Source of the DNA: Bacteroidales bacterium | GTDB lineage: Bacteria > Bacteroidota > Bacteroidia > Bacteroidales > F082 | Length of the DNA stretch: 36,136 nucleotides | Direction of reading: 5' to 3' | NCBI GenBank assembly: GCA_017537965.1 | Contig: JAFYJV010000023.1 | Location: 1 to 36,136, forward strand | Part shown: in pieces, positions 10,827-36,116 of the stretch | How positions within the stretch are numbered: the stretch's first letter is position 1 | How the letters are laid out: the number at the start of each line of letters is the position of its first letter | Notes under the pieces: model-generated | Seen by the model: only the letters and a program-made list of their open reading frames with translations | What the model was told of the DNA's origin: nothing | Database searches by the model: none | Made by a program: the position numbers and the translations under genes

Positions 10827-10857
10827 TTCTTACTTCTTGCTTCTGTCTTCTGTCTTC
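10827..10857 (-). repeat. heptad array A (3' of polA)
   Basis: On the minus strand, reading from just after the polA stop: GAAGACA, GAAGACA, GAAGCAA, GAAGTAA, then GAA. It has one arm only and no inverted partner. It belongs to the same family as the arrays at 13958, 17399, 30774 and 36082. The purine-rich strand is the sense strand of the upstream gene. Confidence 0.9.
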
Positions 10858-10864
10858 TTAAAAA

Positions 10865-13501
10865 TCAATGTGCCTCCAGCCAATTGCTTCCTGTGTTGAT
10901 CTCCACGATGACGGGAACGGAGAGCGGCATGGCATTCACCATCTTGTCGTTGACGATGGATTTCAAGTCGGAAAGCTCGTCGAGATGGGCATCGAAGACC
11001 AGTTCGTCGTGGACTTGAAGGATCATCTTCGACTGCATCTTCAGTCTTTGCATCTCTTGATGGATGCCGATCATGGCGATCTTGATCATGTCGGCGGAAG
11101 AGCCTTGAATAGGTGCGTTGATGGCGTTGCGCTCGGCGAAGCTGCGCACCGTGGCGTTGGATGCGTTGATGTCGCGAAGGTAACGTCGGCGGCCCAGGAT
11201 GGTCTCGGCATAGCCGCGCTCACGGGCCAAGGCGATGCTGCGGTTCATATATTCCTTGATACCGGCATATTCCTCAAAATATTTCTTGATGATGTCGGCG
11301 GCCTCCCCTCGCGAGATCTCCATCCGCTCGGCCAAGCCGAAAGCCGACATACCATAGATGATGCCGAAGTTGACCGCCTTGGCCCGGCTGCGCTGCTCCT
11401 TCGTGACCTGGTCGAGCGGCACATGAAACACCTTGGCGGCAGTGGCGGCATGGATGTCGTGACCGAGGTTGAAATCGGCAATCATGGCCGGGTCGCCGCT
11501 GAGATGGGCGATGATGCGCAACTCGATCTGTGAATAGTCGGCGGCGAGTAGGGTATAGTCGGCACTGCGAGGAACGAAAGCACGACGGATCTCACGACCG
11601 TTGGCGGTTCGCACAGGGATGTTCTGCAGGTTGGGATTGTTGGAACTCAACCGTCCCGTCGCCGTCACCGCCTGATTGTACGAGGTGTGGATAAGACCGT
11701 CGCGTGGGTTGATCAAGGCTGGAAGCGCATCGAGATAAGTCGATTTCAGCTTGGTATAGGAACGGTACTCCAAGATATCGTTGATAATGGGATGCTTGCC
11801 CGACAGCTTTTGAAGCACTTCTTCGCCCGTAGCATATTGTCCCGTCTTTGTCTTCTTGGCCTTGGCATCAAGTCTCAGCTTGTCAAAAAGCACCTCGCCC
11901 AGTTGTCTTGGCGAGGCGATGTTGAATCGCACCCCTGCCATGCCGTAAATGGTTTCTTCCAGCTGGCTGATATGCTTTCCAAACTCATCGCTGATGTTAC
12001 GCAGGTTCTGGCTGTCGATCTTCACCCCGTTCTCTTCCATCACACTCAGCACCGTGACAAGGGGCATCTCTATCTCATCGAAAAGCTTTTCCAATCCATT
12101 TTCTTTCAATTTGGGAAGAAACAGGTTATACAGTTCCAAGACGACATCTTCGTTTTCATCAGGATTCCAGAGGTTGCCCATGGGAGTGATGCTCCGGTTG
12201 AGATAAATGTCGGCAAGGTAATCGAGTGTGTGACGCTGCTCGGGTTCAATGAGATAATGGGCGATCATGGTGTCGAACTGCCGCCCTTTGATGCCGATGC
12301 CATGTCTGCGAAGACCTGAAAGTATAGGCTTGAGGTTGTGTCCGACTTTGATGACATCAGGATTCTCAATGAGCTGCTTCTGTTGTTCCCATCGATCTTC
12401 ATTGGAGGTGAGGATGAGGACATTGGAAGGAATGCCCTGCTTTGGTCGTTCTTCCCTCTCAACGACAGCAGAAACAGACGGTTGGGCGAAGAGGTCATAT
12501 TGTCCGTTTGTAGGAGGCGTCGAAAAGGTGCCTCGTTTCACCGATTGTTGATTTTCGGTCGCCATCGTGGTATTCTGAACCGTCCCAACAGAGGCTGCCG
12601 CAGCCTTTTCATCAACATGGTATTCCGACATGAACCTACGCTTAAAGGTGCGGAACTCCAATTCATCAAACAATTCCAGCAGGGCGGAAATGTTGGGTTC
12701 ATTCAATTCCAGTTCCTCTTCGTTGAACTCGACGGGGGCGTCCAGCAGGATGGTGGCCAGTTTCTTTGAGAGCAAGCCTTGATCCGCATACTGGATAACA
12801 TTTTCCTTTTGTTTCCCTTTAAGTTCGTCCGCGTGGGCGATCACATTTTCTACGCTGCCATATTTGCCGATGAGGATGGATGCGTTTTTCTCGCCGATAC
12901 CGGGGATGCCTGGGATGTTGTCCGACGCATCACCCCAAAGACCGAGGATATCAATGAGCTGGGTAGGATGACTAATGCCATATCTCTCACATATCTCTTT
13001 TGGACCGCAAACTTGCGCCGGAGTGCCGAATTTAGCCGGCTTGTAGATGAATACCTTGTCGGTGACCAATTGTCCGAAATCCTTGTCGGGAGTCATCATG
13101 TATGTAACAAAGCCCTTCCCTTCAGCTTTGCGAGAAAGCGTTCCAATGACATCGTCGGCCTCATAGCCTTCGGCGGCATACACAGGAATGTTGAAGCCTT
13201 CGATCAGCCTAATAATATAAGGTATGGAAGCACGGAGATCATCAGGCATGGTCTCGCGGTTTGCCTTGTATTCAGTGAATTCTTGGACACGAACGGTAGG
13301 CGCATGAAGATCAAAGGCAACACCGATATGAGTTGGCTTCTCATTGCGCAGCACGTCGTACAAAGTGTTCAGAAACCCCATGACAGCGGAGGTATTAAGA
13401 CCTTTCGAGTTCATGGCGGGACGTTTGTTCAAGGCAAAGAAAGCCCTGTATATCAATGCATACGCATCAAGCAGAAACAGTTTTTTTGCAGGTTGGTCCA
13501 T
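10865..13501 (-). CDS. polA: DNA polymerase I with degenerate 3'-5' exonuclease domain
   Basis: Fills gaps, removes RNA primers and takes part in repair. 878 residues. The 5' nuclease domain (about 1-290) is intact, with GYEADDVIGTL, TPDKDFGQL and the H3TH segment GDASDNIPGIPGIGEK. The polymerase domain (about 440-878) has AADYSQIELR at 654-663, RAKAVNFGIIYG and the QVHDELVF motif. The middle is reduced: a low-complexity linker (298-356) leads straight to VIKVGHNLKPIL (384-394). The exo I DxE strand is missing, and the exo II aspartate (normally NxxxD) is replaced (NLKPI). Only QFDTMIAHYLIEP and HTLDYLAD remain. Proofreading is predicted absent. The start at 13501 follows a TATCTTTA element. 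Confidence 0.96.
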   Translation of the reverse strand: MDQPAKKLFLLDAYALIYRAFFALNKRPAMNSKGLNTSAVMGFLNTLYDVLRNEKPTHIGVAFDLHAPTVRVQEFTEYKANRETMPDDLRASIPYIIRLIEGFNIPVYAAEGYEADDVIGTLSRKAEGKGFVTYMMTPDKDFGQLVTDKVFIYKPAKFGTPAQVCGPKEICERYGISHPTQLIDILGLWGDASDNIPGIPGIGEKNASILIGKYGSVENVIAHADELKGKQKENVIQYADQGLLSKKLATILLDAPVEFNEEELELNEPNISALLELFDELEFRTFKRRFMSEYHVDEKAAAASVGTVQNTTMATENQQSVKRGTFSTPPTNGQYDLFAQPSVSAVVEREERPKQGIPSNVLILTSNEDRWEQQKQLIENPDVIKVGHNLKPILSGLRRHGIGIKGRQFDTMIAHYLIEPEQRHTLDYLADIYLNRSITPMGNLWNPDENEDVVLELYNLFLPKLKENGLEKLFDEIEMPLVTVLSVMEENGVKIDSQNLRNISDEFGKHISQLEETIYGMAGVRFNIASPRQLGEVLFDKLRLDAKAKKTKTGQYATGEEVLQKLSGKHPIINDILEYRSYTKLKSTYLDALPALINPRDGLIHTSYNQAVTATGRLSSNNPNLQNIPVRTANGREIRRAFVPRSADYTLLAADYSQIELRIIAHLSGDPAMIADFNLGHDIHAATAAKVFHVPLDQVTKEQRSRAKAVNFGIIYGMSAFGLAERMEISRGEAADIIKKYFEEYAGIKEYMNRSIALARERGYAETILGRRRYLRDINASNATVRSFAERNAINAPIQGSSADMIKIAMIGIHQEMQRLKMQSKMILQVHDELVFDAHLDELSDLKSIVNDKMVNAMPLSVPVIVEINTGSNWLEAH

Positions 13502-13517
13502 AAAAACAAATTTGGTG

Positions 13518-13525
13518 TAAAGATA
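13518..13525 (-). promoter_or_regulatory. probable -7 element of polA
   Basis: TATCTTTA on the minus strand, 16 nt before the polA ATG. It matches TAnnTTTG at all fixed positions except the last. Confidence 0.45.
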
Positions 13526-13574
13526 AGAAGATCGGGAAGAAGAAGACGCCCAAAAGTGGAAAAAAAGCGAAAAA

Positions 13575-13607
13575 TTTGGCGTGTATGGGAAAATTAGATT
13601 ATCTTTG
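13575..13607 (+). promoter_or_regulatory. promoter of the acpP-fabF-rnc cluster
   Basis: A -33-like TTTG at 13575-13578 and a -7 element TATCTTTG at 13600-13607 are separated by 21 nt, the spacing expected of Bacteroidota primary sigma promoters. The leader to acpP is about 90 nt, long for this window. Confidence 0.7.
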
Positions 13608-13704
13608 CCGCGTATTTTGAAAACGAGAGCATTTATTTTGACGACTTGCAGATCTGTAACTTATTGATTTGCAGCGTTGATGTTAAACAAAAAATTAGAA
13701 AATC

Positions 13705-13950
13705 ATGTCAGAAATCGAACAACAAATTGTGCCTATCATTGCCGAAAAGTTGGGTGTCAACCCCTCTGAAGTTACTTTGGACGCCAGTTTCACCAACGAT
13801 TTAGGTGCAGATTCTTTGGACACTGTAGAGTTAATGCTGGATTTTGAAAAGAAATTCAACATTGCTATTCCCGATGATCAGCAAGAAAACATTGTCACTG
13901 TGGGTGACGTGATCAAACTGATCGAAGAAGAACAGAAGAAAAATGCATAA
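13705..13950 (+). CDS. acpP: acyl carrier protein
   Basis: Carries growing acyl chains on 4'-phosphopantetheine during fatty-acid synthesis. 81 acidic residues, the normal length. The attachment serine is Ser37 in [17 protein letters not shown], the canonical motif. The gene is immediately followed by a long hairpin made of heptad repeats and then fabF, the usual acpP-fabF pairing. The promoter lies ~100 nt upstream. Confidence 0.97.
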
Positions 13951-13956
13951 TTAAGA

Positions 13957-14030
13957 AGAAGTCAGAAGACAGAAGTCAGAAGCAAGAAGGATTGTCTTTT
14001 CTGACTTCTGACTTCTGTCTTCTAAATTCT
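13957..14030 (+). repeat. heptad array B: long hairpin between acpP and fabF
   Basis: The left arm is GAAGTCA, GAAGACA, GAAGTCA, GAAGCAA, GAAGG. The right arm is the inverse of GAAGACA, GAAGTCA, GAAGTCA. A perfect 19-bp stem pairs 13964-13982 with 14005-14023. Allowing four mismatches and two G-U pairs, it extends to 34 positions (13957-13990 with 13997-14030) around a 6-nt loop. It starts 7 nt after the acpP stop and ends 7 nt before the fabF ATG. There is no U-tract, so a simple intrinsic terminator is unlikely. Confidence 0.92.
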
Positions 14031-14037
14031 GAATTCC

Positions 14038-15285
14038 ATGAAAAGAGTAGTTGTCACAGGTCTCGGAGCCATCACGCCCATAGGAAACACAGCCAAGACG
14101 CTGTGGATGGGTTTGATAAACGGCAAAAACGGAGTAGGTGAGATTACTCGTTTCGATTCTTCCAATTACAAGACCCATTTCGCTGCAGAGGTCAAGGACT
14201 ACGATCCTTTGAACTATTTTGACAAGAAAGACGTTCGCAAATACGACCTTTACGCCCAATTCGCTCTTATCGCCGCGGAAGAAGCCATCAACAACTCCCA
14301 TATCACGCCAATAAATACCGATTTCGACGAGGTGGGTGTCATTCTTACCGCAGGCATCGGTGGTGTTACTCATTTCTTCAATGAGGTGATGGAACACGCC
14401 AAAGGGGATGGCGTTCCCCGTTTCAGCCCGTACTATATTCCGAAGATGATTCTGAACATCCCCGCAGGAATGATCTCGATCAAATACGGTTTCCGCGGGC
14501 CCAATTTCGCCACCGTTTCGGCATGTGCCTCATCCTCCCACTCCATCATCTCAGCCTTTGATCTCATCCGTTACGGCAAGGCCACTGTTGTCGTTGCAGG
14601 AGGCGCTGAGGCAGCCATCTGTGAGGCCGGCATCGGTGGTTTCAACGCCATGCACGCCCTCTCGTTGCGCAACGACGATCCATTGACAGCCTCAAGGCCT
14701 TTCGACAAAAACCGCGACGGCTTTGTCATGGGCGAAGGCGGTGGCTGCATTGTCCTTGAGGAGTTGGAACATGCCATCAAGAGAGGCGCCGACATCTATG
14801 CCGAAGTGGCTGGTGTAGGCATGTCGGGCGACGCTTATCACATCACCGCTCCCCATCCCGAAGGCTATGGCGCCTGCCTCAGCATGAAACGCGCCCTCAA
14901 CGATGCTGGCATCGACCTTACGGAGGTCGAACACATCAACACCCATGGCACCTCCACGCCACAAGGCGACCTGGCCGAGGTCGTCGCCATCCAGAAACTT
15001 TTTGGCGATCATGCCTACCAGCTCAGCCTCAACTCTACGAAGTCCATGACAGGTCACCTGCTGGGCGGTGCCGGAGCCGTGGAAGCCATCGCCACCATCA
15101 TGGCACTGCGTGAAGGCACCATCCCGCCCACCATCAACCATTTCGAAGACGATCCGCAAATCGACAGCCGCCTTGACTTCACTTTCAACAAAGCGCGCAA
15201 ACGCGACATCCGCTATGCCATCAGCAACGCCTTCGGATTCGGTGGACACAACACGTCGCTGCTGTTCAAGAAGTATCCCATCTAA
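14038..15285 (+). CDS. fabF: beta-ketoacyl-ACP synthase II
   Basis: Condenses malonyl-ACP with acyl-ACP in fatty-acid elongation. The 415-residue length is typical. The Cys-His-His triad is present: Cys163 in TVSACASSSHS, His303 in NTHGTSTPQGD and His340 in KSMTGHLLGGAGAVE. The C-terminal glycine-rich SNAFGFGGHN is intact. It follows acpP across the heptad hairpin and precedes rnc by 12 nt, so the three genes are probably one transcription unit. Confidence 0.97.
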   Translation: MKRVVVTGLGAITPIGNTAKTLWMGLINGKNGVGEITRFDSSNYKTHFAAEVKDYDPLNYFDKKDVRKYDLYAQFALIAAEEAINNSHITPINTDFDEVGVILTAGIGGVTHFFNEVMEHAKGDGVPRFSPYYIPKMILNIPAGMISIKYGFRGPNFATVSACASSSHSIISAFDLIRYGKATVVVAGGAEAAICEAGIGGFNAMHALSLRNDDPLTASRPFDKNRDGFVMGEGGGCIVLEELEHAIKRGADIYAEVAGVGMSGDAYHITAPHPEGYGACLSMKRALNDAGIDLTEVEHINTHGTSTPQGDLAEVVAIQKLFGDHAYQLSLNSTKSMTGHLLGGAGAVEAIATIMALREGTIPPTINHFEDDPQIDSRLDFTFNKARKRDIRYAISNAFGFGGHNTSLLFKKYPI

Positions 15286-15297
15286 AGTTTTCCTGCA

Positions 15298-16062
15298 ATG
15301 GCATTGAGGGATTATGTCGCATACCGCTTGTCAAAAGACAAGCCTTTGTCCGAGTTCATTAAGAACGTCTTCGGCTTCTATCCCAGAAACATCTCCCTCT
15401 ACCAACTCGCCTTTACCCATAAATCCGCCTCAGAGAGCACGGTGGGGTCTTTCCGTGTCAGCAACGAACGTCTGGAATATCTTGGCGATGCCGTCCTAAG
15501 CACCGTTACCGCCGACTATCTCTTTCGCCTCTTTCCCACCAAGTCGGAAGGCTTCCTCACCGAGATGCGCTCCCGCATCGTAAGCCGCGCCTCCCTCAAC
15601 AAACTGTCGCAAAAACTGGGATTTGAACAGGTGATCCACTATTCGCACGACAACCACTCTTCCTTTAAATCGCTGGGTGGCAATGCCTTCGAGGCCTTTG
15701 TCGGTGCCCTATACCTCGACCGCGGCTATGAGTTCTCCAAATACATCCTCATCAATCGTATCATCAAAGTCCATATCGACTTGGAACAGCTGGAGCAAAC
15801 CGATGTGAACTTCAAGAGCAAGCTGCTGGAATGGTCACAGAAAGAGAAACACCATGTCGTGTTCAAGATGCTCAGCGAGAAGAGCGGCAGCCATGGCAAG
15901 CTGTATCAGGTCCAGGTTGTCATCGACGACAAGGAGTACGCACAAGGTGCCGATTACTCCATCAAGGGAGCCGAACAACTGGCCGCTGAAAAGACTTGGG
16001 CCATGCTGGTGGAACAAAAAATGATCAAACAAGAGAAAAACAGCGAGGAAGACGACAAGTAA
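15298..16062 (+). CDS. rnc: ribonuclease III
   Basis: Cleaves double-stranded RNA in rRNA processing and mRNA decay. 254 residues. The signature NERLEYLGDAVL (Glu57, Glu60, Asp64) is intact. The second metal site reads GNAFEAFVGALYLD, with Asn129 where E. coli has Asp114, while the essential Glu132 (E. coli Glu117) is kept. From memory this Asn is common in Bacteroidota enzymes. The C-terminal dsRNA-binding domain (about 170-245) has the ending KGAEQLAAEKTWAMLVEQ. The tail is charged. The gene sits between fabF and the IPExxxVDY gene, an order I recall as common in Bacteroidota. Confidence 0.95.
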   Translation: MALRDYVAYRLSKDKPLSEFIKNVFGFYPRNISLYQLAFTHKSASESTVGSFRVSNERLEYLGDAVLSTVTADYLFRLFPTKSEGFLTEMRSRIVSRASLNKLSQKLGFEQVIHYSHDNHSSFKSLGGNAFEAFVGALYLDRGYEFSKYILINRIIKVHIDLEQLEQTDVNFKSKLLEWSQKEKHHVVFKMLSEKSGSHGKLYQVQVVIDDKEYAQGADYSIKGAEQLAAEKTWAMLVEQKMIKQEKNSEEDDK

Positions 16063-16096
16063 GAAGCTGTTTGGTTTTACTAAAATATCACCTCCC

Positions 16097-16549
16097 ATGG
16101 CTGTCAAGAAAAACAAACTGCTGATCGCCCCCTTCGATGACATCCACATCATCGGCCTCAACACCACCCTCGTCGATTACAAACTCGCCTATTACCTCAA
16201 CGAGAAGCTGAACTTCAACTTCATCAGACTCAACGACATCCTTCTCGACGAGGCCCTGCCCTACGCCTTTTTCTATTACAATGCCGGGGAGAACCGCAAC
16301 GCCTATAACCTGGTGTCGCTCAAGCACAAAGACCATCTCTGCGTCAAACTCAACCCACACATCGACTGCCTACTCATCGTACGCAACCACATCACCCCCG
16401 ACCGCCTTGCACAGATCGTGAAAAGCCTCCGTGAGATCAAGGACATGAGCTATGCCTATACCATGGAACTCAGCCGCACCCCCACCATCGACGTCCTGCT
16501 CGAACGCATCGAGATGCACGAAAGACATTGCCTCGAAGCACGCCTGTGA
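16097..16549 (+). CDS. IPExxxVDY family protein
   Basis: A 150-residue soluble protein of unknown function, named for a motif in the family. Here the motif region reads KLNPHIDCLLIVRN, a weak match to IPExxxVDYFLFIRN, but the opening pattern (VDYKLAYYLNEKLNFNF) and the position right after rnc fit. Members usually sit between rnc and pyk; pyk is not found here and a LytTR gene follows instead. The start context is CTCCCATGG, part of a recurrent C-rich start context in this window. Confidence 0.72.
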   Translation: MAVKKNKLLIAPFDDIHIIGLNTTLVDYKLAYYLNEKLNFNFIRLNDILLDEALPYAFFYYNAGENRNAYNLVSLKHKDHLCVKLNPHIDCLLIVRNHITPDRLAQIVKSLREIKDMSYAYTMELSRTPTIDVLLERIEMHERHCLEARL

Positions 16550-16562
16550 TTCAAGATTTTTG

Positions 16563-16570
16563 TATTTTTG
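16563..16570 (+). promoter_or_regulatory. -7 promoter element of the LytTR gene
   Basis: TATTTTTG, 22 nt before ATG 16593. It supports that start and an independent transcript. The longer frame from 16452 would overlap the preceding gene by 98 bp. Confidence 0.65.
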
Positions 16571-16592
16571 CAAATCGAATACATCATTCGCC

Positions 16593-17399
16593 ATGAATCA
16601 GCTTCCCAAACATATTTTCTCCTCCAACGGCTTCTGGGGCCACCTCGTGGGGCTTCCGTTGTTTGTCCTTGGACTGCTCTTGCTCTTCTGCCCGTTTGCC
16701 TTCAAAAACTTTGACATCACCTTTTCGAGCTATTCTTTCCATATCACGATGACGTTTTGCATCATCGTGGTCGTGATGCTCGTTTCCCGGATCACCTTGG
16801 GCCTGTTGAATAAGCGAAAGACGCTGACGAGAACTCAGTATTATTTTGCCTGCCTCTTCGAAATTCTCTTTGCTTCGGGATTCACCGGTTTGTATCTATG
16901 GCTGTTCACGAAGAAAACCGAGGCCTATTTCGTGTTCTTCGGATATACTTTGGTCTATCTCTCCGTGGCGATGATCATTCCATACATCATCCTTTTCCTT
17001 TACCATCAGATTCTTGACAAAGAAGAGCAGCTTGAAGACGCCGCAAAGCCGGGCCAAGGCGAAAAAATACGCTTTCTCGACGAGAGAGGCAACGTCCGTC
17101 TGATTGTGTCGCAGCTTTCGATCCTGTATATCCAATCCGATGAGAACTACCTGCGCATCTATTATCTTGACGAAGGAAAGATCAACACCTACCTGTTGCG
17201 GAGTTCCATGAAACGCATCGAGGACATGTGCGCCAAAAACGGCTTGATCCGCTGTCACCGTTCCTATTTTGTGAACAAGGAACACGTGCAAGTGCTGCAA
17301 AAAGACAAAGAATTCACTTACGCCATCCTCGACATACAAAACGCTGCCCACATCCCCGTGAGCAAGAATTATTACGATCAGGTTTCGGCGATTTTATAG
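16593..17399 (+). CDS. membrane-anchored LytTR DNA-binding regulator
   Basis: A 268-residue protein. The N-terminal half has four hydrophobic segments (about 17-35, 51-72, 87-105 and 112-134). A short charged linker follows, then a C-terminal LytTR DNA-binding domain from about 165. That domain includes SILYIQSDENYLRIYYL, YLLRSSMKRIEDMC, IRCHRSYFVNK and IPVSKNYYDQV. There is no receiver domain and no histidine kinase alongside. It probably acts as a one-component transcription factor tethered to the inner membrane; the signal and targets are unknown. Its stop codon TAG supplies the first base of a heptad repeat array. Confidence 0.9.
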   Translation: MNQLPKHIFSSNGFWGHLVGLPLFVLGLLLLFCPFAFKNFDITFSSYSFHITMTFCIIVVVMLVSRITLGLLNKRKTLTRTQYYFACLFEILFASGFTGLYLWLFTKKTEAYFVFFGYTLVYLSVAMIIPYIILFLYHQILDKEEQLEDAAKPGQGEKIRFLDERGNVRLIVSQLSILYIQSDENYLRIYYLDEGKINTYLLRSSMKRIEDMCAKNGLIRCHRSYFVNKEHVQVLQKDKEFTYAILDIQNAAHIPVSKNYYDQVSAIL

Positions 17400-17474
17400 A
17401 AGTCAGATAACAGAAGACAGAAGTCAGGAGGAAGAATTTTGATTCTGACCTTCTGACTTCTGTCTTCAGACTTC
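17399..17474. repeat. heptad array C: hairpin between convergent LytTR and glnA genes
   Basis: The left arm reads GAAGTCA, GATAACA, GAAGACA, GAAGTCA, GGAGGAA. The right arm is the inverse of GAAGTCT, GAAGACA, GAAGTCA. The stem pairs 17413-17431 with 17449-17467 (19 bp, one G-U). The arms abut both stop codons directly: the first heptad shares the G of the LytTR TAG, and the last ends one base before the glnA TAA. It could act as a transcript end for both genes, but has no U-tract. Confidence 0.9.
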
Positions 17475-18986
17475 TTAGCCTACATGGATGTTTTCGTTGA
17501 CCAGCTTCATGATCTTCTCAGTGTCGTTACCCAATTCCTTGCGGAGGTTGGCATCCTTGAAGTCGCTGAGGTACTTGATCATGTAGTCGATGATGGCATC
17601 GGAGAACACACCCTTGTCAGTGTAGATCTTGCGGTCTTTCTTGAGTTCCTTGGCGGCAGCCACGCAGCTGTCGGGCAGTTGCTCAAGGCTCTCCTGCACC
17701 TTTTTGTTCTTGGCATCGTGGATGTTCACGCCGAGGCCAACGTAGGTCTTTTCAGCCACTTTAAGAGCATCGGGCATCTCAAAGCCATGACGTGCGGCAG
17801 CGCAGAGGGCGGCCATCAACAAGTACATGTCGGCGCAGCCGTCAGAGGCACGCCATTCGAAAGTCTGTTTGTCGCTGAAGTCGCGATTCGACTTCTTCTC
17901 AAGCGGGTTGCAGTTGGCCACCATGTCCTTGCCGTTGTTGATCCAGCCCAACGGCACACGCACCAAGGCGCTGCGGTTGCTGTAGGACCAGCAGAGTGAG
18001 GTTGGGGCTTCTTGATGCGGCACCAGACGGAGGAACGACAGCGGGTTCGGGTTGCCGAAGGCAGGCAGCGAGGTACCGGCGTCCATGTAACCGGCGATGG
18101 CTTTCTTGCCATAGTCGCTGAGCTCGCCCTTTTCCACCATCACGCTCTTGCCGTTCTTCGTGAACTTGCAGTGGACGTGCATACCGGATCCGGCCTTGCC
18201 CACGGTGATCTTCGGGGCGAAGGTCAGCACCACACCATACTGGTAGGCCAGCTGGCGCATGATCCACTTGGCGACGACCAGTTGGTCGGCGGCATCCTCG
18301 ATGTTGGTAGGCAAGAACTCGATCTCGTTCTGCTCGTAGATCTTGCCGTCGTGGGTAAAGTTGCCCACCTCGGAGTGACCGTATTTGATCAAGCCACCGG
18401 CTTGGGCGATGAGACGCATGGCCTCCACGCGGTACTCGGTGAACTTGTTGAACGGGGCGCTCTCGTGGTAGCCACGTTGATCCGGCACTTCGTAGATTTG
18501 TTCGTCATCAGCGATGATGTAATATTCCAGTTCGCCCATGGTCTCCATTTCGAGACCTGTGGTCTTCTTAAAGACCTGGTGAGCCTTGCTGAGGATGTAC
18601 TCCGGTGAACTCTCGAAGGGCTCGCCGTCGCGGTTGTAGAACGAGCAGAGGATGTCGAGGGTCGGAATCTCCGAGAAGGGGTTGCGGAAGGCCGTCTTGT
18701 ACTTCGGCACCACGTAGAGGTCGCTCTTTCCGGCTTCGATGAAGGGGAAGAGGCTGGAGCCGTCGACACGTTCACCGGCGGAGAGGATGTTCTCCAGGTG
18801 TTCGGCGCTGTGGATGACGAAGTTAAGGGTTTTCAACTTGCCGTCCCATCCACAATAGTGGAAGTTGATGAATTCGATTTCATTGTCCTCGCAATAGCGG
18901 ATGATGTCGGCGCGGGTAAATTCCGCTGCTGGTTTCTGCAAGTATTGCACCAGCAGGTTGGGGTTCATGGCAACTTTTTGATCCAT
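17475..18986 (-). CDS. glnA: glutamine synthetase (type I-like)
   Basis: Makes glutamine from glutamate, ammonia and ATP, the main ammonium-assimilation step. 503 residues from ATG 18986. Active-site segments are visible: the metal-binding GELEYYI and YEQNEIEFLP, the nucleotide-site GKAGSGMHVHCKF, the glutamate/ATP region YSNRSALVRVPLG and EWRASDGCADMYLLMAAL. No adenylylation-type Tyr motif is evident near the C terminus. The longer frame to 19076 begins upstream of the TATCTTTG -7 element (19046-19053) and is rejected. It is divergent from the DUF4919 gene and convergent with the LytTR gene across a heptad hairpin. Confidence 0.93.
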   Translation of the reverse strand: MDQKVAMNPNLLVQYLQKPAAEFTRADIIRYCEDNEIEFINFHYCGWDGKLKTLNFVIHSAEHLENILSAGERVDGSSLFPFIEAGKSDLYVVPKYKTAFRNPFSEIPTLDILCSFYNRDGEPFESSPEYILSKAHQVFKKTTGLEMETMGELEYYIIADDEQIYEVPDQRGYHESAPFNKFTEYRVEAMRLIAQAGGLIKYGHSEVGNFTHDGKIYEQNEIEFLPTNIEDAADQLVVAKWIMRQLAYQYGVVLTFAPKITVGKAGSGMHVHCKFTKNGKSVMVEKGELSDYGKKAIAGYMDAGTSLPAFGNPNPLSFLRLVPHQEAPTSLCWSYSNRSALVRVPLGWINNGKDMVANCNPLEKKSNRDFSDKQTFEWRASDGCADMYLLMAALCAAARHGFEMPDALKVAEKTYVGLGVNIHDAKNKKVQESLEQLPDSCVAAAKELKKDRKIYTDKGVFSDAIIDYMIKYLSDFKDANLRKELGNDTEKIMKLVNENIHVG

Positions 18987-19045
18987 TACAATTGTTGATT
19001 TGTTGAGTTGTTTATTTATTGAGTTGTTGTTTCCTGAAAGGGAGG

Positions 19046-19053
19046 CAAAGATA
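19046..19053 (-). promoter_or_regulatory. -7 promoter element of glnA
   Basis: TATCTTTG on the minus strand gives a leader of about 50 nt before ATG 18986, one of the longer leaders here. It decides the start of glnA. Confidence 0.7.
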
Positions 19054-19101: not shown

Positions 19102-19124
19102 CGTGAAACATAGCAAATTCCATC

Positions 19125-29363: not shown

Positions 29364-29370
29364 AAAAACC

Positions 29371-29461
29371 AAATAGTTTAATAATTTTCAATTAAATAAT
29401 ATAGCTAATTTAAATAGTATTATTACCTTTGCAGATATTTTTGTAAAAAACAAATAGTATT
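29371..29461 (+). promoter_or_regulatory. three phased AAATAGT repeats upstream of hicA
   Basis: AAATAGT occurs at 29371, 29412 and 29452, i.e. 41 and 40 bp apart (about four helical turns each). The last two copies are identical over 10 nt (AAATAGTATT). They interleave with -7-like elements TACCTTTG (29424-29431) and TATTTTTG (29436-29443) and precede the hicA -7 element. Possible operators for the HTH of HicB; this is inference. Confidence 0.4.
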
Positions 29462-29472
29462 CGTTTTTTTAC

Positions 29473-29480
29473 TATATTTG
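29473..29480 (+). promoter_or_regulatory. -7 promoter element of hicAB
   Basis: TATATTTG, 15 nt before ATG 29496. The upstream TTG start at 29478 falls within it and is rejected. Confidence 0.6.
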
Positions 29481-29495
29481 CAGCGTAAAGATAAT

Positions 29496-29702
29496 ATGAG
29501 TTTTAAGTCGGTGAAATATGTGATAGACTTACTGGTGAGACATGGTTTCATACTAAAAAGTCAAAAGGGTAGTCACATGAAGTTTGTAAAAGGAGACAAA
29601 ACGGTGGTTGTTCCCAATCACGGCAGTAAAGGCATAGAAAAAGGAACCTATTACAACATCCTAAACCAGGCAGGTATCAAAGAAGAACGAGAAAAACAAT
29701 AA
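29496..29702 (+). CDS. hicA: HicA-type mRNA interferase toxin
   Basis: 68 residues with the HicA dsRBD-like fold. The catalytic histidine sits in KSQKGSHMKFVKG, followed by VVVPNHGSKGIEKGTYYNIL. HicA toxins cleave mRNA and tmRNA when released from HicB. It starts after a TATATTTG promoter element, with hicB 3 nt downstream, the usual toxin-first order. No residue appears lost, so the toxin is predicted active. Confidence 0.92.
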   Translation: MSFKSVKYVIDLLVRHGFILKSQKGSHMKFVKGDKTVVVPNHGSKGIEKGTYYNILNQAGIKEEREKQ

Positions 29703-29705
29703 AAT

Positions 29706-30098
29706 ATGAAAAATGTGGAAGTAGTTGTAGAGTATGCGGGTAAAAACCTAAGTGCTTATATCAAGGACGCCCCCCTCTTCACTGTAGGCAAAGATTTAAA
29801 AGAAATAGAACTCAACATGCGAGAGGCTATAGATCTATATTTGGAAGACAACCCAAATCCCTGCGAGTTACTCTCAGGAGAATATGAGCTGAAGTATCGT
29901 ATAGATACAGCAACGTTTCTCAACTATTACAGCAGTGTTTTCACCAAAGCCGCACTAAGTCGTATCACCGGCATCAACGAGAGGCAACTCTGGCATTATG
30001 CAGCTGGTGTCCATAAACCACGGAGCAAGCAAACGGAAAAAATAAAAAATGGCATCAGATCACTGACAAAAGAACTAGAAGCCATCAACTTAGTATGA
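29706..30098 (+). CDS. hicB: HicB-type antitoxin with HTH domain
   Basis: 130 residues. The N-terminal partial RNase-H-like fold (VVVEYAGKNLSAYIKDAPLF, then ELNMREAIDLYLEDNP) neutralises HicA. The C-terminal part, KAALSRITGINERQLWHYAAGVHKPR, is an XRE-like helix-turn-helix that would autorepress the operon, possibly at the AAATAGT repeats upstream. The last 9 bp overlap the convergent RluA-family gene. Confidence 0.9.
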   Translation: MKNVEVVVEYAGKNLSAYIKDAPLFTVGKDLKEIELNMREAIDLYLEDNPNPCELLSGEYELKYRIDTATFLNYYSSVFTKAALSRITGINERQLWHYAAGVHKPRSKQTEKIKNGIRSLTKELEAINLV

Positions 30099-30773
30099 CA
30101 GCCCAAACGACGGCCACGGTTCCGTTTTAGGCAGTGGGGCGGTAATATCAACCTGTGTCTTCTGCACTGGATGCTCGAAGGAGATCCGATAGGCATGGAG
30201 ACAGATGGACGCGTCAGGGTTGCTGCGCGGATAGCCGTATTTCAGGTCGCCTTTGATGGGGCAACCGATATGTGCCAACTGGCAGCGGATCTGATGGTGG
30301 CGACCTGTAAACAGTTCTACTTCCAAGAGATAATAATTATCGGATTTACCTACCAACCGATAACTCAAACGCGCCAGCTTGGCCTCTTTAGTACCCGCAG
30401 GAACGATATATGACTTGTTTTGTTTTTCGTTCTTTACGATATAGTCTTCAAGCACGTCGGCATCTTTAGGCGGACGGTTTTTCACGATGGCCAAATATAT
30501 TTTTTGGAAATCCCTTTCCTTCACCTTGACCGTCATCCTCGACAAGGCCTTGCTCGTCTTGGCAAACACCACCGCTCCACTCACGGGTCTGTCGATGCGA
30601 TGCACCAATCCCGCAAACACATTGCCCGGCTTGTCGTATTTCTCTTTGATATAGGCTTTTACGTCGTCCAAAAGGCACACATCGCCCGTCTTGTCGCCTT
30701 GCACAATCTCCGAAGGCAATTTGTTCACCACGATGAGGTGGTTGTCTTCATATAGTATTCTATCGTCAATCAT
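30090..30773 (-). CDS. RluA-family pseudouridine synthase
   Basis: Isomerises uridine in rRNA or tRNA. 227 residues, the short form without an S4 domain. The catalytic Asp61 lies in GLVHRIDRPVSGAVVFAKT. The other family blocks are ERDFQKIYLAIV, ELFTGRHHQIRCQLAHIG and a KGDLKYGYP segment. The target uridine cannot be told from sequence. It begins 8 nt after the mnmA stop, with a heptad array between the genes. That array provides an AGGAGG stretch 4 nt before the ATG, unusual in this phylum. Confidence 0.9.
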   Translation of the reverse strand: MIDDRILYEDNHLIVVNKLPSEIVQGDKTGDVCLLDDVKAYIKEKYDKPGNVFAGLVHRIDRPVSGAVVFAKTSKALSRMTVKVKERDFQKIYLAIVKNRPPKDADVLEDYIVKNEKQNKSYIVPAGTKEAKLARLSYRLVGKSDNYYLLEVELFTGRHHQIRCQLAHIGCPIKGDLKYGYPRSNPDASICLHAYRISFEHPVQKTQVDITAPLPKTEPWPSFGLSY

Positions 30774-30805
30774 TCTGCCTCCTAACTTCTGTCTTCTGTC
30801 TCTTC
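30774..30805 (-). repeat. heptad array D (mnmA 3' end to pseudouridine synthase start)
   Basis: On the minus strand: GAAGAGACA, GAAGACA, GAAGTTA, GGAGGCA, GAA. It is one arm only. The last codons and the TAG stop of mnmA lie inside it, and it ends at the ATG of the next gene. It is the most diverged member of the family. Confidence 0.8.
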
Positions 30806-31864
30806 AATAATCACCCCGCTTCCAACGACGTACGGTTCCGTCTCATGATACATTACCCCAAACTGCCCTGGTGCGATGCCCGACACTGCCACGTCGCTCA
30901 CGATATCGGCGCCCTTGGGTGTGATATGGATGGTGCCTTGTGTGAACTCTGGCTGGTGGCGTATCTTGTAACGCACCCGCATCCCTTCGGTGAGACGCAA
31001 GGTAGGGTTCATCATTTGGAGGTCGCCCAGGGGGATGATGTTGGTATATTGCGCGATGGGATCGTAGCCTTGCGACACATAGACGATGTTGTTGGGGATG
31101 TCCTTTTTCACCACGAACCAAGGTCCGCCTCCCAGCCCGAGGCCTTTGCGCTGTCCTATGGTATGGAACCAGAATCCCTTGTGTCGGCCCAGTTTCTTTC
31201 CCGATTCAATCTCCACGATGTCGCCTGGCATCTCGCCGAGATATTCGCGGATGTAGTCATTGTAATTGATTTTGCCAAGGAAGCAAATGCCCTGACTGTC
31301 ATGCCTTTCTGCCGATGGCAACTTGTATTGTGCGGCCAGTTTTCGCACTTCAGGCTTGGGAAGGTCACCGATGGGAAAGATCACCTTGCTCAGCTGCAGG
31401 TAGGTGATGCGGCCAAGGAAATAGGTCTGGTCTTTGTAGGTATCGGCTGCTGTTCCCAGCCAAAAGATGCCCTTTTCGTCTTCCCATGAGCGAGCATAGT
31501 GTCCAGTGGCTATCTTGTCGAAACGATGTCCTTCTTTCTCTTCGAAGGCGCCGAGTTTGATCCAGCGGTTGCACATCACATCGGGGTTGGGCGTGAGTCC
31601 TTTGCGCACCATCTCCATGGTATAGCGCCCGACCGTCTCGAAATACTCATGTTGCAGATCCACAATGTCGAACGGGCAACCGTATTTTTTGGCGATATAG
31701 GTAGTGATCTCAATATCTTCTTCTGAGGGGCAGGACGAGAGGTCTTCTTTCCCTTCCATTCCTATCTTGATATAGAAGATATGCGGCGTGAAGCCCTGTT
31801 CTTTGAGCAGGGGCACCACCACGGAGCTGTCAACGCCCCCCGATACCAATGCGGCGATGTTCAT
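30782..31864 (-). CDS. mnmA: tRNA-specific 2-thiouridylase
   Basis: Thiolates U34 of tRNA for Lys, Glu and Gln. 360 residues from ATG 31864. The PP-loop SGGVDSS is at residues 8-14. The two catalytic cysteines are in NPDVMCNRWIKLG and SQGICFLGKINY. The C-terminal beta-barrel is complete (VRYKIRHQPEFTQGTI). The longer frame to 31909 crosses the TATCTTTG promoter element and is rejected. The last six residues (ETEDRS) are encoded by heptad-repeat DNA. Confidence 0.95.
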   Translation of the reverse strand: MNIAALVSGGVDSSVVVPLLKEQGFTPHIFYIKIGMEGKEDLSSCPSEEDIEITTYIAKKYGCPFDIVDLQHEYFETVGRYTMEMVRKGLTPNPDVMCNRWIKLGAFEEKEGHRFDKIATGHYARSWEDEKGIFWLGTAADTYKDQTYFLGRITYLQLSKVIFPIGDLPKPEVRKLAAQYKLPSAERHDSQGICFLGKINYNDYIREYLGEMPGDIVEIESGKKLGRHKGFWFHTIGQRKGLGLGGGPWFVVKKDIPNNIVYVSQGYDPIAQYTNIIPLGDLQMMNPTLRLTEGMRVRYKIRHQPEFTQGTIHITPKGADIVSDVAVSGIAPGQFGVMYHETEPYVVGSGVIIEETEDRS

Positions 31865-31887
31865 GGTTGTGACAACAATAATTTTTG

Positions 31888-31895
31888 CAAAGATA
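31888..31895 (-). promoter_or_regulatory. -7 promoter element of mnmA
   Basis: TATCTTTG on the minus strand, 23 nt before ATG 31864. It fixes the mnmA start and probably also serves the pseudouridine synthase gene. Confidence 0.7.
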
Positions 31896-31973
31896 CAAAC
31901 AAATTCCATACTGGAAACAATAGTATTTATTTCATTTTTAATAATAAATTATTTAAAATATTTACAAAAATAT

Positions 31974-32095
31974 TATTTTTGCTTTTTTGTTGTTATATTT
32001 AAAAATTTCTGATTATTTTTGCAGAAAAAAACAATGTGGATATTATAAAAAACCATCAAAGCTATTGTTTTATACCTCTTTTATTTTTATTTTTG
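31974..32095 (+). promoter_or_regulatory. three tandem -7-like elements upstream of the large T9SS gene
   Basis: TATTTTTG occurs at 31974-31981, 32014-32021 and 32088-32095, each within the identical 10-mer TTATTTTTGC. Spacings are 40 and 74 nt. The last copy, giving a leader of about 90 nt, is the most likely start site. The others may be additional promoters. Confidence 0.5.
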
Positions 32096-32190
32096 CAGTC
32101 CAAAATGTCACGCTTTCTAAAAAAGAAAAGACAATTTATATAGTTTATAATCAATAAATTAACATAATAAAAACAAAAATTTTCAAAACG

Positions 32191-35100
32191 ATGAAGAATT
32201 TTACAAAAATCATGGCAGCCATCGCGCTGCTCGCATTCCTCGCTTTCCCAATGGGGATGAGGGGACAAACAAGAGACGTTGAAACATTTACGTTCTCCGA
32301 ATTGGGTTATGAAAATGCCGAAAATGTTACAACAGTTGAAGGAGACAATGTAACATTGACATTTGACGCTGGAACAAATGCGAACAATTCGCCCAAGTAT
32401 TATAATACTGGAGCGGGTGTTCGTATGTATGCAGGTAACACCCTTGAAGTTGCCTTAAATGATCAAACAGGTGATACTAGAATTACGGCAATTGATTTTA
32501 CTTTTTCTGGTAGTTCTTATACTGGTGGGTTGCAGAACTGGACAGGTAGCGAGACTTCCCATACTTTTACGGCAACTGGGACCGCTCGTATTCAGGTGAT
32601 TACTGTGACCTTCTCCGAAGGTGGTGTTGCTCCTACCACTTACACCGTCACTTATTATGCCAATGTTACAGGTACAGCACCTGTTGTTGACACCTATATC
32701 GAAGGTGCAGATGTTACATTGCGTGATGCTAACACCTTCACGAATGATGGCTATACCTTCAGCGAATGGAACACTGACCCTGATGGCGATGGCGACTCAT
32801 ACGCAGCAGGTGATGTTATTAATGATATAGATGATAATTGGGACTTCTATGCCATTTGGACAGAAAATATGCCGAGCGATGATCATTGGGTGCTCACCAG
32901 CCTCGCTGACCTCACCACAAGCGATGTGTTCGTTATCGTGGGTAATAATGATTCCAACTATGCCATGTCAAACGACAAAGGCACGAGCAATCCTCCAACC
33001 GCAGTTGCAGTGACCGTGACTGGGAACGAAATCACTAGTACGGTGGCAGCAAATATTCAGTGGAACATCAGTGGCGATGCTACTAATGGTTACACTTTCT
33101 ATCCGAATGGTTCTACCACAACTTGGCTTTATTGCACTGCCACTAATAATGGTGTTCGCGTGGGAACAAATACAAACAAAACTTTTGTTGTTGATCACGA
33201 TTATCTAAAGCATACTAGCACATCAAGATATGTTGGTATTTATAACTCACAAGATTGGAGATGCTACACTTCTTATACTGGAACTAATATTGCTGGTCAA
33301 ACATTCGCTTTCTACAAGAAAGTGACCGGCGAGGTTCTTCCTCCGAGCATCACCGCGGCCAATGTTGACATTGAATACAATGCCACCTCTGGCTCAATCA
33401 CCTATACCATCAACAACGGTGTTGAAGGTGGCGCATTGACTGCCACTACCGAAAGCGAGTGGCTCACGCTTCCCAACACTTTTACTAGTCCGATAGAGTT
33501 CACTTGCACAGCCAACGAGGCAGGTACTGCCCGCACGGCCACGGTCACACTGACCTACACTTATAACCGCGAAACCGTCACCAAGGACGTGACCGTCACC
33601 CAAGCTGCTGCCCCCGTGGTTTACAACACTATGCAAGCCATTTTTGATAAGGCAACAGAAGTTGGAAACACTGCAACAAGTGTCAACATTGCTCTCCAAA
33701 ACTGGGTAGTGTCTGGCGTTTCCACTAACGGAAAGAATGTATTCGTTACGGACGGCACCAAAGGTTTCGTCATCTTTAATACTGATGGAAACATGGGATT
33801 CGCTGTAGGAAATGTCTTGAGTGGAACGGTGTCTTGCAAAGTCCAATTGTATCACGGTTTTGCAGAGATCACCGAACTCAACTCTTCAACAGAAGGCATT
33901 TCTATTGCTACTGGTGGCACTGTCACAGAAGCCAATATCGCCATGGCTGAACTTGCTGGTGTCAACACAAGCGCTTTGGTGAGCTATGATAACTTGACTT
34001 GCAGTGTAACTACTAGTGGCAATAATACCTTCTATAACCTTTCGGATGGCACCACTACCATTCAGGTTTACAACTCCCTCTATGCATTCGATGCCCTTGT
34101 AGATGGCAAGACCTACAATATCACGGGTGTTTATCAACAATACAACAACACCAAGGAGATTCTGCCTCGCAGTGCTGACGATATTGAGGAAGTTCAAGTC
34201 CAGCATAATGAATATACGCTGACCGTCAGCAATCTGAGTCACGTCAATCTCTTTATATTCGCTGGCGAAGAAAGCGAAACCATTATTAGTACTGAGGATG
34301 GAGAGACTACCGCCCAAGTATATGATGGAACAGAAGTATTGGTTAGTATTGATGTTGAAGCAGGATATGTCTTCCAATCCTTGACTATTACGGATGGTAA
34401 TGGTGATCCCGTTAATATGGAAGAACTCACCGCAAATGAATACTACAGCTTCGTTATGCCTACCAGTGACGTGACTATTACCGCTTCGGCAGAGGTTCTT
34501 ACAGGCGACCAATACGAACTCTTCACTGGTGATGAACTTGTGGAAGGCGATTATCTGATTGTTTACAATGGAAAGGCCATGAACAATACGGTATCGAGTA
34601 ACAGACTTCAATATGAAGAGGTCATTGCAACGAATAATGTGATTACAACTGACCATGCCGCCATCGTTTGGCACATTGCTCCAAGTGGAGACTACTGGAC
34701 TATCTACAGTGCTGATGCTGAAGCATATGCTGCGAGTACAGGGACCAAGAATCAAGCCACAACTATGGCTGATGGATCTGATGACAAAGCCTTATGGACG
34801 GCTTCTGGCAATTACGATTTTGTAAACAAATATAATGCAGCCAACAGCGTCAATTCCTATCTCAGAAACAACGGCACTTATGGCTTTGCTTGCTATGGAA
34901 CGGGTACTGGTGGTGCCTTATCCCTCTACAAGAAAGTTGAAGACACCCCTGTCACCGAAACCTACACACTCACCATCGAAGGTTACGGCACCAGCGCTGG
35001 CGGCTACTATCTGATTGCTTCGCCTGTTAAAGAAGTTGAACCTACTGCTGATAACGGCTTCATCACTGATGATTTTGACCTCTACATGTTCGACGAAAGT

Positions 35101-36078
35101 GAAGAGGATGAATGGATCAACTACAAACAAGACGATGACAACACCGGTTTCGATGCCCTGTTAAGCGGAGTGGGTTACCTCTATGCAAGTAAACAAAGAA
35201 CCGAACTTGAATTCACTGGCACGCCTTACGACGGCGATGGAGTATTTGATCTAAACTACACTGAAGGCGCCGACATGGCAGGTTGGAACCTCGTGGGTAA
35301 TCCCTACAGCACCTGGGCTACCGTTGACAAACAGTTCTACATCATGAACGGCACTGGCACTAACCTCATCGTCAGTGAAACCGACACGGTTGCCGCTATG
35401 CAGGGTATCTTTGTAAAAGCTACCGAACCCGGCGAGTACGTCACCTTTACCCAAGGTTCTACTGAACCAGAAGGAAAGATTGTCCTCAACGTCTTGAAGA
35501 ACCGCGGTAATGTCATCGACCGTGCTATCGTCAACTTCGGCGAAGGTGTGCTTCCCAAGTTCCAACTCAACCCGAACGACACCAAAGTGTATTTCCCTCA
35601 AGCCAATGAAGAATACGCCGTTGTGAGCAGCGACGAAGAAGGTGAGATGCCCGTCAACTTCAAGGCTAACGAGAACAACACCTATACCCTCAGCGTCAAT
35701 GCCGAGAACGTCGAGATGGAGTACTTGCACCTTATCGACCTTATGACTGGTGCCAATATCAACCTGCTGGCCAACCCGAACTACAGCTTCGAAGCCAACA
35801 CCACCGACTTCGCTAGCCGCTTCAAGCTGGTCTTTGTCGCCAACAATGGCATCAACGAACACAACAGCAACAACTTCGCCTTCTTCAACGGAAGCGAATG
35901 GGTGATCAACAACGAAGGTGAAGCCACCTTGGAAGTGATCGACATGACAGGCCGCGTCCTCAACACCATGACCGTCAATGGCAACGCCACCACCAAAGTC
36001 AACGCTGCCACCGGAGTCTATATGCTCCGCCTTACCAACGGTAACGATGTGAAGACTCAAAAGGTCGTTGTGAAATAA
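32191..36078 (+). CDS. large multidomain T9SS-exported protein (BACON and InlB-like repeats)
   Basis: 1295 residues. A signal peptide (to about residue 26) is followed by a beta-sandwich and an InlB B-repeat-like domain (about 149-228; TYTVTYYANVTGTAPVVDTY ... FYAIW). A ~145-residue domain follows (233-378, ending FYKK), then a BACON domain (385-472) and an OB-fold-like domain (478-667). Next is another repeat-like domain (672-768) and a second ~140-residue domain (775-916) resembling the first and ending LYKK. A long C-terminal region precedes a type A T9SS sorting domain (final ~80 residues, ending NGNDVKTQKVVVK). BACON and InlB modules suggest binding to glycans or mucin. No catalytic domain is recognised. 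Confidence 0.88.
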   Translation: MKNFTKIMAAIALLAFLAFPMGMRGQTRDVETFTFSELGYENAENVTTVEGDNVTLTFDAGTNANNSPKYYNTGAGVRMYAGNTLEVALNDQTGDTRITAIDFTFSGSSYTGGLQNWTGSETSHTFTATGTARIQVITVTFSEGGVAPTTYTVTYYANVTGTAPVVDTYIEGADVTLRDANTFTNDGYTFSEWNTDPDGDGDSYAAGDVINDIDDNWDFYAIWTENMPSDDHWVLTSLADLTTSDVFVIVGNNDSNYAMSNDKGTSNPPTAVAVTVTGNEITSTVAANIQWNISGDATNGYTFYPNGSTTTWLYCTATNNGVRVGTNTNKTFVVDHDYLKHTSTSRYVGIYNSQDWRCYTSYTGTNIAGQTFAFYKKVTGEVLPPSITAANVDIEYNATSGSITYTINNGVEGGALTATTESEWLTLPNTFTSPIEFTCTANEAGTARTATVTLTYTYNRETVTKDVTVTQAAAPVVYNTMQAIFDKATEVGNTATSVNIALQNWVVSGVSTNGKNVFVTDGTKGFVIFNTDGNMGFAVGNVLSGTVSCKVQLYHGFAEITELNSSTEGISIATGGTVTEANIAMAELAGVNTSALVSYDNLTCSVTTSGNNTFYNLSDGTTTIQVYNSLYAFDALVDGKTYNITGVYQQYNNTKEILPRSADDIEEVQVQHNEYTLTVSNLSHVNLFIFAGEESETIISTEDGETTAQVYDGTEVLVSIDVEAGYVFQSLTITDGNGDPVNMEELTANEYYSFVMPTSDVTITASAEVLTGDQYELFTGDELVEGDYLIVYNGKAMNNTVSSNRLQYEEVIATNNVITTDHAAIVWHIAPSGDYWTIYSADAEAYAASTGTKNQATTMADGSDDKALWTASGNYDFVNKYNAANSVNSYLRNNGTYGFACYGTGTGGALSLYKKVEDTPVTETYTLTIEGYGTSAGGYYLIASPVKEVEPTADNGFITDDFDLYMFDESEEDEWINYKQDDDNTGFDALLSGVGYLYASKQRTELEFTGTPYDGDGVFDLNYTEGADMAGWNLVGNPYSTWATVDKQFYIMNGTGTNLIVSETDTVAAMQGIFVKATEPGEYVTFTQGSTEPEGKIVLNVLKNRGNVIDRAIVNFGEGVLPKFQLNPNDTKVYFPQANEEYAVVSSDEEGEMPVNFKANENNTYTLSVNAENVEMEYLHLIDLMTGANINLLANPNYSFEANTTDFASRFKLVFVANNGINEHNSNNFAFFNGSEWVINNEGEATLEVIDMTGRVLNTMTVNGNATTKVNAATGVYMLRLTNGNDVKTQKVVVK

Positions 36079-36081
36079 TTA

Positions 36082-36116
36082 GAAGACAGAAGACGGAAGT
36101 CAGAAGTCAGAATGAT
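36082..36116 (+). repeat. heptad array E (after the large T9SS gene)
   Basis: GAAGACA, GAAGACG, GAAGTCA, GAAGTCA, GAATGAT, starting 3 nt after the T9SS gene stop. The window ends 20 nt later, so a second arm cannot be seen. As in array D, the arm ends in GAATGAT, which contains an ATG (36112) open to the window edge. This could be the start of the next gene, but it is too short to call. Confidence 0.88.

Follow-up and report, generated by a model that had tools for sequence, protein, structure and literature searches.

The 36,136-nt window analysed here (contig JAFYJV010000023.1 of a Bacteroidales genome, assembly GCA_017537965.1, called G000 below) contains seven A/G-rich arms built of tandem 7-nt units with the consensus GAAGWCA, spread over five loci, and arrays of this kind recur through the genome and beyond it. 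First, read along their A/G-rich strand, the arrays tend to start at a gene boundary, mainly behind a stop codon and in the sense orientation, and in this compact genome there is a second docking mode, just ahead of a start codon and antisense. Secondly, the heptad word is swapped at orthologous sites in relatives, with the period, polarity, docking and pairing of facing arms persisting. Thirdly, the arrays are period-7 tandem repeats, dispersed and mainly intergenic, as is characteristic of short tandemly repeated repetitive sequences (STRRs) or long simple sequence repeats (LSSRs); whole-unit length change, also characteristic of these, is seen among Okeania relatives only. The reading that we put first, at about even confidence, is that they are STRR/LSSR heptads with a placement rule and word turnover, in which facing pairs serve as 3′-end hairpins.

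All seven arms that the original prediction had placed at the five loci are present, with refined coordinates (Table 1), and at these coordinates the single and left arms do begin at or just behind stop codons, and the mnmA arm in the last codons of its gene. A chance origin is ruled out by two shuffle comparisons: GAAGWCAGAAGWCA at up to two mismatches has 20 matches in the window, of which one (at 1752) falls outside the five loci, with 1.1 expected (100 shuffles, maximum 4), and an array scan at a score of at least 14 finds seven arrays in the window vs none in five first-order Markov shuffles. A known RNA family is ruled out as well, the curated Rfam models giving no matches over the window at gathering scores.

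Docking of the arrays at gene boundaries

The source genome comprises 2.32 Mb in 41 contigs and is 93.8% complete; a 14-mer at no more than one mismatch has 208 matches in it, overlaps counted. A control with the pattern written backwards (counts of 37 and 45 in G000) was set aside, GAAG and GAAGACAGAAG being identical in reverse. Docking was measured in 795 kb of the genome, from six contigs or parts of contigs, with genes called by our own script rather than a standard caller; the script misses the LytTR gene, so that the arms at 17396–17477 receive wrong distances and one is scored as undocked. A search free of any consensus singles out period 7, with 54 gap segments and no more than 10 at each of the periods 5, 6 and 8–14, and finds several words side by side (GAAGWCA, GGAGTTA/GGAGTGA, GAATTTA and others). 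GAAG arrays number 58, of which 50 lie in gaps and eight within called open reading frames (ORFs), and the earlier claim that this is not a coding repeat therefore mostly stands, the exceptions being these eight and the in-frame copies in the PolA linkers of four relatives described below.

The purine-strand 5′ end lies no more than 15 nt from a gene boundary in 44 of the 50 gap arrays, and the 3′ end in 28, many gaps being filled; the 5′ neighbour is a stop codon in 37 and a start codon in 13. Where there is slack of at least 40 nt (22 arrays), the 5′ end lies no more than 16 nt from the boundary in 17 and the 3′ end in three, with a uniform expectation of 3.6. In 13 cases out of 33 the stop and the first GAAG share a phase (1/7 expected, p 0.0004), and divergent gaps hold two of the 50 arrays vs 83 of the 562 gaps (p 0.019). 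Arrays that neighbour start codons are antisense, 12 of 17 being at +4 to +10. The proposed docking with the purine strand as the sense strand of the upstream gene is thus real and extends beyond this genome, although it does not describe every arm: the right arm of the acpP-fabF pair, which falls outside the stop rule proposed for single and left arms, is antisense at the fabF start.

Two simple sources of the docking can be dismissed. The 3′ flanks that are free of arrays are 52–55% purine over their first 30 nt, so the purine bias belongs to the arrays themselves and not to locally purine-rich flanks. Nor do the arrays dock in order to supply the stop codon, since units such as GAAGTCA and GAAGGAA, with no sense stop in any frame, still dock. 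Period-8 arrays in G000 (one of five docked 5′, three of five docked 3′) are too few to judge.

The arrays have a genome-wide polarity, roughly T-W-A-GAAG-(WCA-GAAG)n-TAA-GAAT. The triplet before the first GAAG is TTA, ATA or TAA in 34 of the 50 gap arrays, 18 finish exactly in NNA-GAAT, and ACA and TCA units lead, with TAA, TTA and AAA units commoner later; the similar variation of the last units that had been noticed at the window loci is part of this pattern. The main units in G000 and its relatives (GAAGWCA, GAAGTAA and most others) have no runs of three or more G. Several arrays on the start-codon side in G000 (e.g. 13999–14036) shift to AATTTAG units nearest the start, with an AT-rich leader, which may reflect selection on translation initiation.

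The genes that neighbour the window arms are named from their Pfam domains (dnaG, polA, acpP, fabF, LytTR, glutamine synthetase, mnmA, pseudouridine synthase family and BACON). The array at 10827–10860 stops short of a GCAAAATTA block (reverse complement TAATTTTGC) that precedes dnaG and that we take to be promoter-like. A period-8/16 repeat, TTGTTGAG, opens the called glutamine synthetase ORF at 18992–19029.

Table 1. Heptad arms, hairpins and polA in the 36,136-nt window.
Feature	Coordinates	Strand	Remarks
polA/dnaG locus, single array TAAGAAGACAGAAGACAGAAGCAAGAAGTAAGAA	10827–10860	-	First GAAG 7 nt past polA stop
acpP-fabF gap, inverted heptad pair	13951–14037		Fills gap; hairpin
acpP-fabF left arm	13955–13991	+	Purine strand sense; first GAAG 4 nt past acpP stop
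acpP-fabF right arm	13999–14036	-	Purine strand antisense; 5′ end 1 nt from fabF start codon
LytTR-glutamine synthetase left arm	17396–17436	+	First GAAG shares last base of LytTR-gene TAG stop
LytTR-glutamine synthetase right arm	17448–17477	-	Purine strand begins at glutamine synthetase TAA stop
LytTR-glutamine synthetase convergent gap hairpin	17400–17474		
mnmA array	30773–30801	-	Covers mnmA last codons and stop; extends to start of next gene (pseudouridine synthase family)
BACON array	36079–36122	+	After TAA stop of 1295-aa BACON-domain protein; first GAAG 36082, 3 nt past stop
polA	10865–13501	-	Linker (about aa 300–350) without heptad arms here; arms present in four relatives

Facing arms and replacement of the heptad word among relatives

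At two window loci an inverted second arm had been expected to make a hairpin, and the stems are indeed strong and are kept despite sequence replacement. The acpP-fabF pair folds at −40.7 kcal/mol vs −18.8 for shuffles (sd 4.9), positions 17397–17475 fold at −42.2 vs −18.0 (sd 4.1), and the gap hairpin itself (17400–17474) at −37.6 kcal/mol. Among 134 consensus-free arrays from G000 and 11 relatives, neighbours no more than 120 nt apart are '+-' in 21 cases, '--' in two and '-+' in none, and arms match within their locus (mean score 17.3 vs 9.2; 0 of 5000 permutations). Several of the 21 '+-' pairs are one locus seen in different genomes, and some match poorly or mix words (G008 6447–6598, G000 C1 110024 and C10 52148).

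The pieces from the 11 relatives centre on one region, with the same loci recurring across genomes, and comparison of orthologous gaps finds filled, word-swapped and empty sites. The acpP-fabF gap contains hairpins of GAAG or GGAG type in G008, G013, G023 and G037 and of GAATTTA type in G010 and G051, and is free of arrays and 12–20 nt long in G004, G020, G034, G036 and G055. Behind the polA stop, ahead of dnaG, the word is GAAGACA in G000, ACTGAAA/ACGGAAA in G008, AGTTGAC in G055 and of GAAGTAA type in G004; there is no array in G020 and a longer insertion in G010 and G034, the other five of the 11 relatives yielding no comparison. In the LytTR-glutamine synthetase gap there are strong hairpins of GAAGWCA (G000, G010), AACGGAR (G008, G020), GTGGARA (G023) and GGTTARA (G034, G055); G013 (L248) has an ordinary 14-bp hairpin in place of the heptad hairpin, G004 shows nothing clear, G036 lacks the gap, and G037 and G051 yield no LytTR match. 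Because the word is replaced between relatives at this last gap, it is the pairing and the filling of the gap that are kept, and not the sequence.

The distribution of the GAAG word itself is patchy, the 18-mer GAAGNHAGAAGNHAGAAG being present in 28 of 60 genomes of the genus, 65 of 173 genomes of the family, and 9 of the family's 16 genera. From a further 20 pieces (17 from genus members and three from other genera) the 16 of at least 8 kb were examined, and these have 20 gap segments at period 7 and 0–4 at periods 5, 6 and 8–11; eight of them carry no period-7 segments, and the rest carry words like AGTTTAG, GGCTAAA and AATTAGG.

The PolA linker that follows the 5′-3′ exonuclease part also contains heptad arms, translated in frame, in G008, G023, G034 and G055, and heptad insertion or growth is thus tolerated where the protein permits. 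A CGTC-type palindrome adjoins or separates these arms in G034 and G055, with a near match in G008, and is present without clear heptad arms in the linkers of G004 and G036. The sequence CGTCATTGCGAG, which resembles repetitive extragenic palindromes (REPs) of the CGTC type, is found in linkers with arms (L250:10582–10593; L253:9432–9443 and 9507–9518) and in linkers without clear arms (L252:9031–9042 and 9134–9145; L256:6426–6437), and has no match in the window at up to one mismatch.

Arrays in other phyla

Genome contigs scanned with the pattern (GAAGWCA)3GAAG yield at least 117 stretches, and 80 of the 117 listed include Cyanobacteria, Acidobacteria, Nitrospirae, Deltaproteobacteria, Verrucomicrobia, Planctomycetes and Bacteroidetes. 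The 117 listed stretches, which are not independent (Bacteroidetes are included, and several come from the same Okeania and Moorena genomes), hold 177 arrays, of which 49 at locus edges and 41 in called ORFs were dropped and 87 in gaps were counted. Among the 82 with slack, 26 are docked by the 5′ end, 25 of these at stops, and one by the 3′ end, with 4.5 expected; neighbour pairs are '+-' in 16 cases, '--' in 10 and '++' in five, with no '-+'.

In Okeania, a cyanobacterium with long gaps, docking was measured in one genome over 360 kb of about 9.5 Mb, where the consensus-free search finds 139 gap arrays with many words. The 5′ end is docked in 40 of these (33 at a stop, seven at a start) and the 3′ end in six, with 3.9 expected per side; beside stops, 12 of the 5′ ends fall at −3 to +3 vs 0.9 expected, and the 3′ ends have no such peak. 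Summed over two contigs there are 138 arrays at period 7 vs 26, 10, 3, 2 and 1 at periods 8–12, and two of the 26 at period 8 dock (Fisher p 0.016 vs period 7), which rules out that tandem repeats dock in this way whatever their period. Some period-8 arrays of Okeania genome G173, such as GGGGAGTA, resemble a heptad plus one base. Neighbours are '--' in five cases, '+-' in four and '++' in four, and '-+' is absent here as in both other sets (G000 with its relatives, and the 117 listed stretches). The alphabets of G000 and Okeania are alike, A/G-rich and C-poor, with five words in common, and words with G-tracts do occur in Okeania, e.g. AATAGGG.

Changes of length can be followed between Okeania genomes G173 and G182, whose pieces are 91–98% alike and in which 10 of the 15 arrays of one 20-kb stretch are comparable. 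Four of the 10 have changed internally, by −7, −21, +14 and −7, two have the same length, another differs by +7 in flanking sequence, and one contains, in one of the two genomes, a palindromic insert of net 21 nt (L307:10537–10568 and its G182 counterpart in L317). In a third genome, G176, a different array (AATAGGG) is present at one of the stops, and the distance from that stop to the older array is longer by a net 84 nt.

Explanations and relation to known repeats

As STRR/LSSR heptads, the arrays would arise by 7-nt slippage or template switching, with their birth favoured behind stop codons, where ribosomes would no longer cover the transcript; an R-loop with purine RNA could give the strand bias, and selection would clear arrays from promoters and most coding sequence. 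The arrays would then turn over, with whole 7-nt units gained or lost and words coming to differ between relatives. Facing arrays form a long stem-loop maintained by pairing, which at convergent ends would act as a bidirectional 3′-end RNA hairpin, either protecting the RNA or resembling a terminator. The original prediction had also raised a 3′-end mRNA element, and this hairpin reading suits the two-armed loci; an element that depends on the word is unlikely, given that orthologous sites carry different heptads.

Several observations weigh against this account. Docking in G000 is partly forced by the short gaps, and in the consensus-free set with slack of at least 60 nt it amounts to 8 of 14 at the 5′ end vs 3 of 14 at the 3′ end (p 0.11); pieces from Moorena and Acidobacteria, chosen around arrays, show a weak docking excess only. 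The three single arms of the window fold weakly, and single arms are the majority of arrays, so that a hairpin role would be limited to two-armed loci; even there the acpP-fabF hairpin is dispensable, as judged by the five relatives that lack it, and in Okeania, to judge by the neighbour orientations, adjacent arms do not usually face each other. The in-frame copies in PolA argue against a purely 3′-end role, the R-loop step leaves the antisense docking at starts unexplained, and two of the G173/G182 arrays have changed by steps other than 7 nt (net +332 and +1). Finally, slippage by itself accounts neither for the dominance of one word in G000 nor for the presence of GAAGTCA and certain other words in several distant phyla; copying from locus to locus, transfer or a strong preference for particular sequences has to be added.

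An unlikely alternative, to which we nevertheless give some weight, is that the arrays are mobile mini-elements resembling REPs or miniature inverted-repeat transposable elements, spread by a Y1 transposase (of the REP-associated tyrosine transposase, RAYT, type) or another transposase aiming at gene ends. Such elements would account for the polarity and the recurrent ends common to many loci, for acpP-fabF sites that are filled or empty, and for in-frame copies at one PolA linker, some with CGTC-type palindromes. Di Nocera et al. 2013 (PMC3733652) describe REPs of the GTAG and CGTC types as palindromes, often paired, that likewise lie for the most part 3′ of genes, can provide a stop codon and occur inside replication and repair genes; these are not tandem heptads, however, and the GTAG type is often near RAYT genes. 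The RAYT transposase that had been suggested as a linked gene does not appear: Y1 (PF01797) has no matches in the 93.8%-complete G000 (other transposases and reverse transcriptases were not searched) or in the array-rich G001, G036, G038 and G051. Seven other array-rich relatives have 1–5 Y1 matches, but 14 genomes without pattern matches carry 3–8, and the array-rich genomes that lack Y1 rule out a requirement for Y1 or RAYT. Moreover, the REP hallmark is a single conserved palindrome whose foot is GTAG or CGTC; the arms here are instead tandem heptads whose word varies by genome and, at one site, among relatives, and in Okeania their length varies by 7 nt.

It is improbable that the arrays are transcription terminators. 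The two-armed stem-loops are strong and survive replacement of their sequence, and the ordinary hairpin of G013 stands in the gap where other genomes have a heptad hairpin; however, most arrays are single arms, folding weakly where tested, 13 of the 50 have the next start codon no more than 10 nt from their 3′ end, and the arrays as a whole are not enriched in convergent gaps, which hold 9 of the 50 and make up 86 of the 562 gaps. We are similarly doubtful that each heptad is a sequence-specific site for an RNA-binding protein (cold-shock, CsrA- or S1-like) in the mRNA 3′ region. Heptad binding by CspB is discussed by MacGregor 2015 (PMC4679880), and the sense orientation and stop docking in several phyla, together with the alphabet and words that G000 and Okeania share, would suit such a protein. 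Orthologous sites nevertheless hold unrelated words or none, and several words coexist in one genome. Hardly credible is the explanation of docking as a by-product of short gaps and promoters on the opposite side, for although the median gap between co-directional and convergent genes of G000 is 27–30 nt and the polA-dnaG array sits between a stop and the promoter-like block, the stop peak in Okeania, with its gaps of hundreds of bases, and the docking in the 117 listed stretches contradict a mere compact-genome effect.

Bacterial heptad arrays are a long-standing observation for which, to our knowledge, no function has been agreed. Cyanobacterial STRRs, reportedly treated by Mazel in 1990 and Elhai in 2008, are said to be heptamer arrays in which, in Nostoc, small dispersed palindromic repeats are nested, and one such insert is seen in Okeania here; we know of no stop-docking rule for them. 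Rickettsia palindromic elements are in-frame insertions tolerated inside proteins, which resembles the tolerance in the PolA linker, although they are not tandem heptads.

In the open-licence literature that we searched there was no paper describing GAAGWCA arrays, the replacement of one word by another at orthologous sites, or words other than G-quadruplex (G4) ones that obey the placement rule. The original statement that no named family has this unit accordingly stands for the unit, but not for the placement rule, which has been published for G-rich heptads. Rehm et al. 2015 (PMC4692102) describe G4 heptads of Xanthomonas and Nostoc, GGGAATC and GGGGA(T/C)T, as intergenic tandem arrays that lie either on the coding strand, no more than 50 bp from a stop, or on the non-coding strand, ahead of a start, with inverted pairs, few arrays between divergent genes and the majority transcribed; by that account no function was found, and their role remains to be elucidated. 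The placement here is the same (sense behind stops, antisense before starts, few in divergent gaps), and there are inverted pairs, but GAAGWCA and most of the replacing words lack G-tracts, and the word is swapped between relatives at one site. Since the rule holds without G-tracts, G4 folding is not the common cause. The TAACTGA heptads of Beggiatoaceae, Cyanobacteria and Bacteroidetes, as described by MacGregor 2015 (PMC4679880), are similarly dispersed, intergenic and patchy over phyla, with mostly 7-nt indels between two close Cyanothece strains; they differ in their word and in that most of those in BOGUAY sit just before start codons, in the sense orientation.

The new part is therefore the generality of the rule, the turnover of words and the non-G4 units, the placement rule itself having been published for G4 heptads. 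That rule had been tied to repeats that form G-quadruplexes, and the same rule with G-tract-free words, together with word replacement, points to the gene ends themselves. Tentatively, a word-independent process common to distant phyla may keep writing 7-nt arrays at stops, with the purine strand sense and the words swapped or layered on an unchanged site, period and polarity. If this is true, a single phenomenon, tied to the ends of translation or transcription, would have both the Xanthomonas G4 heptads and the TAACTGA heptads among its local words.

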